Assembly: GCF_011320075.1 (NCBI RefSeq)
Contig: NZ_JAANPA010000011.1
Location: 1-64,000, forward strand
DNA length: 64,000 bases
Reading direction: 5' to 3'
From: Sphingosinicella sp. YJ22
GTDB taxonomy: Bacteria > Pseudomonadota > Alphaproteobacteria > Sphingomonadales > Sphingomonadaceae
In this document: positions 49,931 through 53,967 of the stretch, one piece after another
Layout: every line of letters begins with the position of its first letter
Position numbering within the stretch: position 1 is the first letter of the stretch
Program-made: the position numbers and the translations under genes
The notes under the pieces: model-generated
Seen by the model: the letters and a program-made list of their open reading frames with translations, nothing else
Database searches by the model: none
What the model was told of the DNA's origin: nothing

Positions 49931-51382
49931 ATGGCAGGCGCGGCGTTCGACGAGCTCTGGGGTGGCGGCCGGCGCAACGCCGCGGCGCGCGAGGGTTTCG
50001 AGGCGCTCGCCGGCTGGCTCAAGGCCACCCCGCCCGCCGAGCTCGACCGCCGCCAGCAGACCGCCGAGGCCGCCTTCCGCCAGATGGGCATCACCTTCAA
50101 CGTCTATGGCGACGAGGAAGCGGCCGAGCGCATCATCCCGTTCGACATCATCCCGCGAATCTTCGCCGCCGCCGAATGGCGGCGCCTGTCGGAAGGGCTC
50201 GAGCAGCGGGTGCGGGCGATCAACGCCTTCGTCGACGACGTCTATGGCGCTCGGCGGATCATCGCCGACGGCGTGGTGCCGGCCGACGTGGTGCTCGCCA
50301 ACCCGCGATTCTGCGCGGGCGTCGCCGGGGCGCGGCCGCCCCACGGGATCTACACCCATATCTGCGGCATCGACATCGTTCGCACCGGGCCGGACGAATT
50401 CTATGTGCTGGAGGACAATGTCCGAACGCCGTCGGGCGTCTCCTACATGCTCGAGAATCGTGAGGCGATGCTTCGGCTTTGCCCCGAGCTGTTCGAGATC
50501 TTCGCGGTCGAGCCCGTCGATTCCTATCCGGAGCTGCTGCATGAAACCTTGTTCGCGGCCGCGCCCCATCGGGGCCGCGAACCGGTCTGCGTGCTGCTGA
50601 CGCCCGGCCATCACAATTCGGCCTTCTACGAGCACAGCTTCCTGGCCGACAATATGGGCATCGAGCTGGTCGAGGGCCGCGACCTCGAGGTCGACGACGA
50701 CGTGGTGTGGATGCGCACCACCGAGGGCCGGGTGCGGGTCGACGTCATCTACCGCCGAGTCGACGATGCCTTCCTCGATCCGCTCGTGTTCCGGCCCGAT
50801 TCGATGCTCGGCGTGCCCGGGCTGATCGCCGCCTATCTCGCCGGCAACGTCACCATCGCCAACGCGCCGGGCACCGGCATCGCCGACGACAAGGCGATCT
50901 ACTCCTACATGCCGCAGATCGTCCGCTATTATGCCGGCGAGGACGCCAAGCTCCCCAACGTCGAGACCTGGTGCTGCCGCGACCCCTCCGCGCTCAAATA
51001 TGTCCTCGACCATTTGCCCGAGCTCGTGGTCAAGCTGGTCGACGGCTCCGGCGGCTACGGGATGCTGGTCGGGCCGGCCTCGACGCACAAGCAGATCGAG
51101 GACTTCCGCGCCGCGCTGGTCGCCGAGCCGCACCGCTACATCGCGCAGCCGACCCTCGCCCTGTCGACCGTCCCGACCATCACCGCCAAGGGCATCGTGC
51201 CGCGCCATGTCGACTTTCGCCCGTTCGTGCTGAGCGGGCCGGACCGGGTGGTGACCGTGCCCGGCGGACTCACCCGGGTGGCGCTTCGCGAAGGCTCGCT
51301 GGTCGTCAATTCGAGCCAGGGCGGCGGCACCAAGGACAGCTTCATCCTCGCCGACGCGGCGCCGGGCAGAACGACCGGCTGA
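49931..51382 (+). CDS. Circularly permuted ATP-grasp protein (Anbu module)
   Basis: The 483-residue protein belongs to the CP_ATPgrasp/COG2308 type. Key stretches are GITFNVYGDEEAAERIIPFD, DIVRTGPDEFYVLEDNVRTP, RVDVIYRRVDD, NAPGTGIADDKAIYSYMP, and the late ATP-grasp elements LVVKLVDGSGGYGMLVGP and HVDFRPFV. ATP-grasp enzymes make amide bonds through acyl-phosphates. Its stop overlaps the start of the alpha-E gene (TGATG). With the next three genes it forms the gene set that accompanies Anbu in many bacteria, where a small peptide is thought to be made and processed. GAGGGG lies just before ATG 49931. Confidence 0.9.
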   Translation: MAGAAFDELWGGGRRNAAAREGFEALAGWLKATPPAELDRRQQTAEAAFRQMGITFNVYGDEEAAERIIPFDIIPRIFAAAEWRRLSEGLEQRVRAINAFVDDVYGARRIIADGVVPADVVLANPRFCAGVAGARPPHGIYTHICGIDIVRTGPDEFYVLEDNVRTPSGVSYMLENREAMLRLCPELFEIFAVEPVDSYPELLHETLFAAAPHRGREPVCVLLTPGHHNSAFYEHSFLADNMGIELVEGRDLEVDDDVVWMRTTEGRVRVDVIYRRVDDAFLDPLVFRPDSMLGVPGLIAAYLAGNVTIANAPGTGIADDKAIYSYMPQIVRYYAGEDAKLPNVETWCCRDPSALKYVLDHLPELVVKLVDGSGGYGMLVGPASTHKQIEDFRAALVAEPHRYIAQPTLALSTVPTITAKGIVPRHVDFRPFVLSGPDRVVTVPGGLTRVALREGSLVVNSSQGGGTKDSFILADAAPGRTTG

Positions 51383-52317
51383 TGCTGTCGCGCACCGCCA
51401 CCAACCTGTTCTGGATCGGCCGCTATATGGAGCGCGCCGAGTTCACCACCAGCCTGGTCGAGGCGACGATCCGGCTCGATTCGCTGGGCACTCGGGCGGA
51501 GAGCGACCAGACCTGGCGCAGCGCCCTCGCCGTGGTCGGCGCAATGCCGGGGTTCGAGGCGACCCAGGAGAATTTCGGAGCATTCGCGGCGCGCCGCTAT
51601 CTCACGCTCAGCGACGCCAATGACGGGTCGGTGCGCTCCTGCCTCGCCCGCGCCCGCGACAATGCCCGCGCCGCGCGCAACGCCTTGTCGCGCGAGGTAT
51701 GGGAAGCGATCAACCGCGCCTGGCTCACCATTCGCGGCCGCGCCAGCCCCGGCGGCACCCAGGCCACCCTCACTCTCGTCGACGCGCTCAAGGCCGAGGC
51801 GCGCGGCTTCGAGGGCGCCCTCACCCGAATGCTTCGCGCCGAGGCCTATTGGTTCATCCGGCTCGGCACCCTGATCGAGCGCGCCGACAACACGGCGCGC
51901 CTGCTCGACGTCAAATATTACCTGCTTCTGCCGGAAGGAGAGCAGGTTGGCGGCACCCTCGACCGCGACCAGTGGGACACCATCCTCCACATCGTCTCGG
52001 CGCGGCTCGCCTACCGCCTGCTCTACCCGCAGGGGCTCGCGCCGTGGTGGGTCGCCGACCTGCTGGTGTTCCGCCGCGAGCTGCCGCGCTCGCTCCATTT
52101 CTGCGCCGCCGAGACGGTCGAGCTGCTCGCCGAGTGCGGCGCCCGCACCGGCCGCCAGGGCGAGGCCGACCGCCTCGCACGGCAGCGCCTGACCGCGGTC
52201 GAGGGCGACGATATCGACGCCCTGTTCCAGCGCGGGCTGCACGAATGGTTGCAGCGGTTCGTGCGCGAGAACAACGCGCTCGGCGCCGCCATCGCCCACC
52301 AGTTCCGGTTCGCCTGA
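51382..52317 (+). CDS. Alpha-E domain protein (Anbu module)
   Basis: The 311-residue all-helical protein of the COG2307 alpha-E family opens with MLSRTATNLFWIGRYMERAE and contains the second conserved helix RAEAYWFIRLGTLIERADNT and LLDVKYYLLLP. The family has paired Glu/Arg-rich repeats and always occurs next to circularly permuted ATP-grasp proteins, but its activity is unknown. One-base overlaps at both ends (TGATG with the ATP-grasp gene and with the transglutaminase-like gene) imply that the three products are made together, probably as a complex. Confidence 0.9.
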   Translation: MLSRTATNLFWIGRYMERAEFTTSLVEATIRLDSLGTRAESDQTWRSALAVVGAMPGFEATQENFGAFAARRYLTLSDANDGSVRSCLARARDNARAARNALSREVWEAINRAWLTIRGRASPGGTQATLTLVDALKAEARGFEGALTRMLRAEAYWFIRLGTLIERADNTARLLDVKYYLLLPEGEQVGGTLDRDQWDTILHIVSARLAYRLLYPQGLAPWWVADLLVFRRELPRSLHFCAAETVELLAECGARTGRQGEADRLARQRLTAVEGDDIDALFQRGLHEWLQRFVRENNALGAAIAHQFRFA

Positions 52318-53156
52318 TGCAGCTCGGTATCCGCTACACTACCGTCTATCATTATCCCGAGCCGGCGACTCGGCTGATCCAGCTGCTGCGCGTGACTCCG
52401 CACAGCTTCGCCGGCCAGACGGTGCTGGACTGGCGCATCGACGTCGACAGCGACGCGCGGCTGCGCGAGCATCGCGACGGCTTCGGCAATATCGTCCACA
52501 TGCTCTACATGGACCGGCCGCCGGGCGGACTCGAAGTCAGAGTCACCGGCCGGGTGCTGACCGAGGACCGCGCAGGTATCGTCGGCGAGGTGCCGTACGA
52601 CCTGCCGCCGCAGGTCTTCCTGCGCGCGACTCCGCTGACCGAGGCGGGACGGTCGCTCGCCCCCCTCGTCCATGCCCTGCGCAAGCACGATCATGACGAC
52701 CGGGCGATCCTGCATCATCTCAACGACCGGCTGTTCCTGCGCATGCGCTTCGACGCCGAGGCCACCGAGCTCGACACCAGCGCCGACGAGGCGTTCGAGG
52801 CGGGCCACGGCGTGTGCCAGGACTTCGCCCACATCTTCATCGCCGCCGCCCGAGCGCTCGGCATTCCCGCCCGCTACGTGTCCGGCCATCTCTACCGGCG
52901 CGACGGCGAGCATCGCCAGCCGGCCACCCATGCCTGGGCGGAGGCGTGGGACCGCGACCTCGGCTGGATCGGCTACGATCCGACCCACGGCATCTCCACC
53001 GACGCGGCCTATGTCCGGGTCGCCTGCGGACTCGACTATCACGACGCCGCCCCCTTCTCCGGCCGGGTCGCCGGTGGCGGCGACCAGTCGCACAGCGTCG
53101 ATGTCGAGGTGAAGGAGGTAGGCCGACGCCAGCAACAGCGGCAGAGCCAGTCGTGA
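52317..53156 (+). CDS. Transglutaminase-like cysteine protease (Anbu module)
   Basis: The 279-residue protein has an N-terminal beta domain typical of this subfamily (IRYTTVYHYPEPATRLIQLL, at 5-24). A transglutaminase core follows with a full triad: Cys167 in GHGVCQDFAH, His205 in ATHAWAEAW and Asp221 in GYDPTHG. Proteins of this COG1305 branch may cut or form isopeptide bonds. It is coupled to the alpha-E gene by a TGATG overlap, and the Anbu gene follows after 64 bases. The last 20 residues are Gln/Arg-rich. Confidence 0.9.
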   Translation: MQLGIRYTTVYHYPEPATRLIQLLRVTPHSFAGQTVLDWRIDVDSDARLREHRDGFGNIVHMLYMDRPPGGLEVRVTGRVLTEDRAGIVGEVPYDLPPQVFLRATPLTEAGRSLAPLVHALRKHDHDDRAILHHLNDRLFLRMRFDAEATELDTSADEAFEAGHGVCQDFAHIFIAAARALGIPARYVSGHLYRRDGEHRQPATHAWAEAWDRDLGWIGYDPTHGISTDAAYVRVACGLDYHDAAPFSGRVAGGGDQSHSVDVEVKEVGRRQQQRQSQS

Positions 53157-53220
53157 CTTTCGCGTCCGTGATTGCGAGAAGCGCAGCAACGACGGCTGCA
53201 CGGACCAAAGGGGACTTGGG

Positions 53221-53967
53221 ATGACCTATTGCCTGGGGATGCTGCTCGACGAGGGGCTCGTCATGATGGCCGACACCCGGACCAATGCCGGGGTCGACAA
53301 TTTCTCGATGTACAAGAAGCTCCACCTGCTCGCCGAAGGTCCCGACCGGACCATCTACGCCTGCACCGCGGGCAATCTGTCGGTCACGCAGACGGTGATG
53401 ACTTTGATTTGCGAAGGGCTCGCCGCGGAAGGGCCGGAGGGCGAGATGCGCCGCAGCCTGCACGAGGCCGGCACCATGTTCCGCGCCGCGCAGCTGGTCG
53501 GCGAGGCGATCCAGATCGCCGGCCGAAGCGTCGGCAGGGCGCTCGAGAGCCTCAACATCTCGGCGAACTCGGCGATCCTGCTCGGCGGCCGAATCGGCAA
53601 CCAGCCCCCTGCCCTGTTCCTGATGTACGACGCCGGCAACTTCATCCAGTGCAAGCCGGAAGTGCCGTTCTTTCAGATCGGCGAGACCAAATATGGCCGG
53701 CCGATCCTCGACCGCGAAGTGCGCAGCGACACGCCGCTGGCCGAGGCGGTCAAATGCGGATTCCTGTCGTTCGATGCGGCGATGGCGTCGAACCTCGGCG
53801 TCGCCCGGCCGATCGACCTGATGGTGATGCCGAGCGACCGCAGGCGGCCGATCCTGAGCCACCGGGTGGAGCGCGACGACGCCTATTTCAACGAGGTGTC
53901 GAAGCGCTGGTCGGACCTGCTCCACGCCGGCACCCGGGCGATCCCCAACCCGCCCTTCATGGCCTGA
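53221..53967 (+). CDS. anbu: Anbu proteasome-like peptidase
   Basis: The 248-residue Ntn hydrolase of the Anbu (COG3484) family is a bacterial relative of proteasome beta subunits and HslV. It begins MTYCLGMLLDEGLVMMADTR and TNAGVDNFSMYKKLH. After Met removal Thr2 would be the catalytic N-terminal nucleophile; Asp18, Arg20 and a Lys at about 32-33 complete the usual active-site set. Other conserved parts are YACTAGNLSVTQ, LGGRIGNQPPALFLMYDAGN and FQIGETKYGRPILDR. Anbu assembles into open spiral oligomers in studied species. Its substrate is not known; the gene set suggests it acts on the product of the upstream ATP-grasp enzyme. A GGGG site precedes the ATG. Confidence 0.93.
   Translation: MTYCLGMLLDEGLVMMADTRTNAGVDNFSMYKKLHLLAEGPDRTIYACTAGNLSVTQTVMTLICEGLAAEGPEGEMRRSLHEAGTMFRAAQLVGEAIQIAGRSVGRALESLNISANSAILLGGRIGNQPPALFLMYDAGNFIQCKPEVPFFQIGETKYGRPILDREVRSDTPLAEAVKCGFLSFDAAMASNLGVARPIDLMVMPSDRRRPILSHRVERDDAYFNEVSKRWSDLLHAGTRAIPNPPFMA

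Follow-up and report, generated by a model that had tools for sequence, protein, structure and literature searches.

Anbu is a proteasome-like N-terminal nucleophile (Ntn) hydrolase, which in its Anbu-1 type forms an open lock-washer ring of six dimers. Its gene is found together with those of a circularly permuted (CP) ATP-grasp protein, an alpha-E protein and a transglutaminase-like cysteine hydrolase (TG), the three of which are called the trio below, in the operons of Pseudomonas putida (PP_2688-2685) and Yersinia bercovieri. The gene set is described in published work, which leaves its product and substrate open (PMC6376114, PMC5666114). The ATP-grasp protein of Y. bercovieri releases phosphate from ATP; in the same study no specific interaction between the operon proteins was detected, and Anbu showed neither peptidase nor amidase activity on standard substrates (PMC6376114). 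Proteasome inhibitors are bound by Anbu (PMC5666114). Here we analysed a stretch of 64,000 nucleotides of Sphingosinicella sp. YJ22 (contig NZ_JAANPA010000011.1), hereafter the window, in which these families are encoded in the order known from those operons, ATP-grasp, alpha-E, TG and Anbu, on the + strand at 49931-53967. Judged by its sequence, the locus is an Anbu operon of the Anbu-1 type and a further copy of an already known operon. The locus itself being an ordinary member, what deserves attention is the comparative pattern: a trio that behaves as a unit, an Anbu separable from it, and a second, unlinked transglutaminase-like gene (TG2).

Every part of the operon was searched for in each of 26 genomes of the genus. 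ATP-grasp, alpha-E and the close TG were each detected in 16 genomes, identical for the three genes, and the remaining 10 genomes have none of them. Anbu was detected in 20 genomes, namely the 16 trio genomes and four others (G135, G173, G211 and G221), each of which is at least 99% complete. Six genomes are devoid of any part, four of them being at least 95% complete. Fourteen of the 16 trio genomes carry the four genes linked and in order. In the other two, G225 and G226, the contig with the trio is not the one with Anbu, and the 1.9 to 4.9 kb read on the expected side do not contain the other part. The trio is all-or-none in the genus, and with the genus g2 described below, which has alpha-E and no Anbu, Anbu is separable from the trio both ways. 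From these comparisons we consider that there is about an even chance that the operon combines two functional units, the trio on the one hand and a separable Anbu with a trio-independent substrate on the other hand.

The position of the genes was then compared. Six of the 14 linked genus members exhibit the organisation ctrA-ATPgrasp-alphaE-TG-Anbu-ATE, in which the ATE gene is convergent, and 9 of the 14 have one flank or both. G135 and G211 read ctrA-Anbu-ATE, the trio missing from the middle, and the same ctrA-Anbu-ATE remnant is found in G226, where the trio sits on a separate contig. The ctrA gene of G173 lies on the opposite strand, and G221 shows neither flank on its stretch. In contrast to the ctrA/ATE site, the window operon sits between bamD and a CHRD-domain gene, the bamD side being common to the sister genome G214. 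A tree of RpoN was built from 25 of the 26 genus genomes (the sequence of G217 was too short and was left out), with 7 of its 22 inner branches well supported. On this tree the trio requires a minimum of 7 changes, and Anbu and TG2 require a minimum of 5 each. G211 stands apart from G135 and G173 in the RpoN tree and is joined with them in the Anbu tree, which also groups G221 with G225. We therefore claim at least two separations of the trio and Anbu, corresponding to these two groups, and no more.

We also asked how Anbu evolves where the trio is missing. The ratio of nonsynonymous to synonymous substitution rates (dN/dS) of Anbu, taken for the three pairings of the trio-less genomes G135, G173 and G211, amounted to 0.15, 0.30 and 0.31; these values are rough owing to high dS and come from pairs sharing branches. 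Scaled to the neighbouring ATE gene, dN(Anbu)/dN(ATE) was 2.14, 2.48 and 2.66 in these pairs (mean 2.43), compared with a mean of 2.51 (1.72-3.13) in 21 trio-bearing genus pairs and of 2.59 (2.01-3.52) in 21 mixed genus pairs. These means were calculated by hand, leaving out pairs with G122, which belongs to another genus, and G221, which has no ATE on its stretch. The dN comparison revealed no decay of Anbu in G135, G173 and G211, and the similarity of their ratios to those of the trio-bearing pairs indicates that the constraint on Anbu is not clearly relaxed.

The analysis was extended to relatives. In a locus scan retaining one genome per species, we considered the best 80 named loci of a longer list, nearly all from alphaproteobacteria. 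All four genes were present in 62 of the 70 loci whose stretch reached 4 kb or more upstream of Anbu; of the remaining ones, 5 had Anbu alone, 2 lacked TG and 1 had only TG and Anbu. Of the 10 loci with a shorter upstream stretch, 2 were complete, 5 contained Anbu and none of the other three genes, 2 lacked ATP-grasp and 1 contained TG and Anbu. Among the 10 genomes with an Anbu-alone locus, 9 have PF14403 and alpha-E matches elsewhere and one (G203) has neither; the sole ATP-grasp match of G198 is a fused protein of the type described below. Over the 196 genomes of the order, Anbu and alpha-E were found together in 75, alpha-E only in 16, Anbu only in 7 and neither in 98. Within the 16 alpha-E-only genomes, 12 belong to a single other genus (g2), and in all 3 of the g2 genomes that were read the whole trio was present in order and Anbu was not. 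PF14403 gave no match in any of the 7 Anbu-only order genomes. The sequence-only reading was to be refuted if the four genes were not co-conserved in relatives. Their co-conservation holds for most of these loci and for the 14 linked genus genomes, and fails for the 4 genus genomes with Anbu and no trio, for the 2 with an unlinked trio and for g2, which counts in part against that reading.

The same reading had suggested a single linear pathway, in which an amide-linked peptide would be made by ATP-grasp, trimmed by TG and degraded by Anbu; a peptide-synthesis proposal reportedly goes back to Iyer et al. 2009, as later papers cite it. The prevalence of complete loci and the strong co-occurrence of Anbu and alpha-E speak for such a pathway, as does the translational coupling that joins the first three window genes, where a single A ends the stop codon and begins the next start codon at 51382 and again at 52317. 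The TG stop is followed by a gap of 64 bases before the Anbu start, so that Anbu is not coupled. Over the relatives, the one-base overlap was found at 19 of 84 ATP-grasp/alpha-E junctions, 12 of 83 alpha-E/TG junctions and 0 of 84 TG/Anbu junctions, and, being restricted to a minority of loci, translational coupling is not general. Starts and stops were located mechanically, which produced outlying spacings, namely one of 1457 in L182 and the extreme TG-Anbu values, and these were kept in the counts. The absence of a one-base TG/Anbu overlap, the retention of Anbu without the trio and the alpha-E genomes lacking Anbu all count against the linear pathway, which we regard as unlikely. What finds support in the suggested pathway is that the four genes mostly go together and that an amide-forming ATP-grasp step is reasonable to assume; what finds none is Anbu as an obligatory last step on the trio product.

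The unlinked TG2, which turned up in the TG search, follows the trio and not Anbu. The TG2 alignment matches PDB 3ISR with an E-value of 1.2e-65 over the TG2 length. In the genus TG2 was detected in 13 of the 16 trio genomes and in 0 of the 10 others (Fisher p 1e-4), and in the order in 66 of the 91 genomes with alpha-E and in 0 of the 105 without. By class, it was found in 58 of 75 genomes with Anbu and alpha-E, 8 of 16 with alpha-E alone and 0 of 7 with Anbu alone. All 66 TG2 genomes belong to the family of the window. The class boundary was set after viewing the table and comprises the 66 genomes whose best match is 2.3e-78 or better; below it, nothing matches better than 9.9e-39, and the best match of the next genome is at about 1e-20. 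No constant neighbour of TG2 was found, the commonest neighbour family occurring in 6 of the 32 loci read (in 3 of the TG2 loci read, its frame was missed by the calling of open reading frames). Since its neighbours vary, linkage does not explain the TG2 pattern. The association with the trio might come from shared ancestry; in the supported contrasts of the genus tree, TG2 goes with the trio in 1.9 of 3 on average and never opposite. We found no published report of such an unlinked transglutaminase-like gene in a search from which subscription literature mostly fell outside; the B. cenocepacia cluster comprises a second TG-like protein, which is linked (PMC5491218). That the real system in the family is made of the trio and TG2, Anbu being an Ntn-hydrolase that accompanies it yet works independently on a substrate of its own, we put at somewhat short of an even chance.

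Several points weigh against the two-unit reading and against TG2 as part of it. Some of the genus genomes lacking the trio are incomplete (81% for G220, 68% for G227), and the two unlinked cases, G225 (87% complete) and G226 (82%), are fragmented assemblies. As G211 is joined with G135 and G173 in the Anbu tree and not in the RpoN tree, the in-place trio losses may go back to a single event that was spread by transfer. Nor can the genomes be counted as independent, since well-supported RpoN branches provide only 3 independent trio contrasts, which are too few for a test. The top dN(Anbu)/dN(ATE) ratios, up to 3.52, are those of mixed pairs, so that Anbu may have accelerated mildly once the trio was lost. 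The co-occurrence of Anbu and alpha-E over the 196 order genomes has an odds ratio of 66, from which the two probably work together where both exist. Finally, TG2 is absent from G209, G215 and G225, which have the trio, as well as from 14 genomes of the family that have alpha-E and from all 11 such genomes outside it.

In the two-unit reading, of which we infer every chemical step from the protein families, ATP-grasp would turn a carboxylate into an acyl phosphate and join an amine to it, an amide-forming ATP-grasp step being a reasonable default. Alpha-E would be its dedicated partner, a role suggested by the single polypeptide that the two form in a paralogous system. TG would trim, transfer or release the amide product, and TG2 would usually take part in the family of the window. 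In the second unit, the Anbu ring would cleave amide or peptide bonds. Its gene usually accompanies the trio, but its substrate would be independent of the trio, and Anbu would so be kept where the trio is gone. The published partner tests considered here looked among the operon neighbours of Anbu. The loss of these neighbours with Anbu kept suggests an Anbu function of its own, and TG2 may be a trio partner that gene neighbourhoods could not reveal. If the separation is true, nature provides trio knock-outs in species such as G135, G173 and G211, where the substrate of Anbu could be sought without the trio product, and an independent Anbu together with TG2 would make the old question of substrate and partner testable in ordinary bacteria.

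The published alternative (PMC6376114) takes the combination of a ligase and a proteasome homologue as a tagging system, in which the trio tags proteins with a peptide and Anbu acts as proteasome or de-tagging enzyme. We consider it very unlikely, given that both units occur alone, that no AAA+ unfoldase is present among the immediate neighbours of the operon (bamD, CHRD and DUF4383 genes by Pfam, recN and ligA by eye), and that the same paper reports neither peptidase activity on standard substrates nor a specific interaction.

A further possibility is a nitrogen-starvation module, the trio and Anbu storing or recovering nitrogen under NtrC and sigma-54. PP_2685-2688 of P. putida are raised under nitrogen shortage or with nitrate in place of ammonium (PMC7801951, PMC8050072). 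In the first column of one table, which we take as the wild type, the trio rises 11 to 15-fold and PP_2685, the Anbu gene, 1.12-fold (PMC7801951); in the other study PP_2685 and PP_2688 are both raised, with log2 values of 4.44 and 3.99, and promoters were taken from separate stretches upstream of each of the two genes (PMC8050072). The ATP-grasp/alpha-E/TG cluster of B. cenocepacia is NtrC-dependent (PMC5491218), in marine metagenomes these domains are found clustered with those of urea metabolism (PMC3597751), and COG3484 belongs to predicted sigma-54 regulons in the alpha, beta and gamma classes (PMC12316311). To this we add a consensus scan from -400 to +30 bases of the ATP-grasp match start, using a -24/-12 consensus. 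With a score threshold of 19.4, picked after viewing the list, strong sigma-54-like sites were found in 36 of 89 loci (L083, L074, L057, L071 and 32 more), which come from other alphaproteobacteria and from the order member G054. However, the scan found no such site in 15 loci of the window genus or in 15 other hand-picked Sphingomonadales loci. Sigma-54 control of the window copy was rejected, as its best site, scoring 15.6 of 21.7, was reached by 95 of 100 shuffles; the window operon thus differs from the 36 loci above. Since rpoN is present in all 26 genus genomes, loss of sigma-54 is not the reason for the missing sites. Moreover, the rise of the trio in P. putida is seen in each of the three strains tabled, the rpoN mutant included (PMC7801951). 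We consider the nitrogen module as an explanation of the window operon to be distinctly unlikely.

The features of the locus are collected in the table. The four adjacent genes, their families, the two TGATG overlaps and the catalytic residues of TG and Anbu had all been named in the sequence-only reading and were recovered here from Pfam and PDB matches and from the residues themselves, as was its statement that the gene set is known with product and substrate open. The family assignment by Pfam and PDB matches is also the basis for equating the proteins with COG2308, COG2307 and COG3484.

Table. Features of the Anbu operon in the window, its neighbours, and the unlinked TG2 gene of the same genome.
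Feature	Position	Strand	Description and basis
CP ATP-grasp gene	49931..51382	+	483 aa from second Met; Pfam, PDB 3N6X, homologue starts
Alpha-E gene	51382..52317	+	311 aa; internal duplication, two ER motifs; Pfam, AlphaFold2, hhalign
TG, transglutaminase-like cysteine hydrolase gene	52317..53156	+	279 aa; Cys167-His205-Asp221; Pfam, PDB 3ISR
Anbu, proteasome-like Ntn-hydrolase gene	53221..53967	+	248 aa; Thr2/Asp18/Lys33; S1 pocket T-Y-T-L-T
TGATG overlap ATP-grasp/alpha-E	51380..51384	+	-1 spacing; read in sequence
TGATG overlap alpha-E/TG	52315..52319	+	-1 spacing; read in sequence
bamD, recN, ligA (one side)		other strand	bamD by NCBIfam and Pfam; recN and ligA named by eye
CHRD-domain gene, DUF4383 gene (other side)			Pfam
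TG2	L192:3083-3856 (contig C36)		258 aa; Transglut_core

The ATP-grasp protein matched Pfam CP_ATPgrasp_2 (E 4.7e-160) and PDB 3N6X (E 6.5e-179). Its frame is open from 49832, and 49931 is the second Met; the match begins at residue 33-39 in 8 of 10 unfused homologues and at residues 2 and 11 in the other two, which makes 49931 the likely start. TG matched Transglut_core (E 1.9e-23), Bact_transglu_N (E 2.9e-20) and PDB 3ISR (E 1.1e-11), and all three residues of its triad are in place. Alpha-E matched Pfam Alpha-E (E 3.5e-77), and its AlphaFold2 model has a predicted local distance difference test (pLDDT) score of 93 and a predicted template modelling (pTM) score of 0.92. No PDB entry matched this model by fold at E <= 0.001, nor was there a match by sequence, and for lack of a PDB counterpart the fold comparison yielded no function for alpha-E. 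The profiles of its residues 1-140 and 141-311 were aligned over 87 columns (hhalign E 7.5e-12, score 73.8; the top score of 20 column-shuffled control runs was 18.7), and the two ER motifs superimpose in this alignment.

In the paralogous system, PF14403 and PF04168 are found within one chain, encoded by a frame of about 830 aa, whose model (pTM 0.83) is in keeping with a fixed arrangement of ATP-grasp and alpha-E. The fused protein is 28-35% identical to the ATP-grasp and alpha-E proteins of the window and, like the trio, has its own TG gene adjoining (L058 and L059). Anbu was not found in the two stretches read, and the fused system is absent from the genome of the window, in which NCBIfam detected one HslV and where there is one alpha-E and one PF14403 match. 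HslV has a proteasome fold like Anbu, but is a separate family encoded by a separate gene.

The window Anbu barely passes for PF00227 Proteasome, with 25.3 bits for a cut-off of 22.4, the other three proteins lying far above their Pfam cut-offs, and an alignment of 13 Anbu sequences matched the solved Anbu structures 5LOY, 5NYJ, 5NYF, 5NYW and 5LOX with E-values of 1.8e-103 to 2.9e-82. Thr2, Asp18 and Lys33 (Met-1 numbering) are present in the window Anbu and kept in 23 of 23 aligned copies, made of 21 from the genus and 2 from outside, G223 being left out. The Thr directly follows the Met with no propeptide, as in Anbu-1; Anbu-2 is likewise a proteasome-like Ntn-hydrolase beginning Met-Thr. 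The S1 pocket distinguishes Anbu-1 from Anbu-2, and that of P. aeruginosa Anbu-1 consists of T20, F30, T48, L52 and S55 (PMC5666114). The window pocket is of the Anbu-1 kind, and the window protein shares with P. aeruginosa Anbu this pocket type as well as Thr1, Asp17 and Lys32/33 (Thr-1 numbering).

Clustering of open reading frames from 100 loci and the window revealed no further widely shared family as a fifth operon gene. The commonest extra family, found in 33 loci, is large and dehydrogenase-like and also occurs far from Anbu, and the others reach at most 28 loci. The convergent gene of an ATE-type aminoacyl-tRNA-protein transferase adjoins Anbu in some members of the family (L042:8001-9588, L172:7548-9107), even without the trio, an adjacency that probably marks the ancestral site. 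This transferase was tried as an Anbu partner, following the N-end-rule idea, and rejected: a search with one Sphingomonad query placed it beside Anbu in only 3 of the best 80 listed loci, which points to shared ancestry of the site.

Other forms of Anbu were also observed. The Anbu-only genome G133, devoid of the trio, retains an Anbu remnant of about the last 100 residues (L044:6848-7147). The genomes G021, G027, G057 and G063, in which ATP-grasp and alpha-E gave no match, encode a distant Anbu, 29-31% identical, whose pocket is by eye nearer to Anbu-2. A thiC-like gene, named by eye, lies near the distant Anbu in three of these four order relatives (L045, L046, L047 and L048). Finally, G214 and G231 contain a second Anbu copy (L174:7641-8381 and L175:7444-8145) which is 51-54% identical to that of the window and has no adjoining trio.

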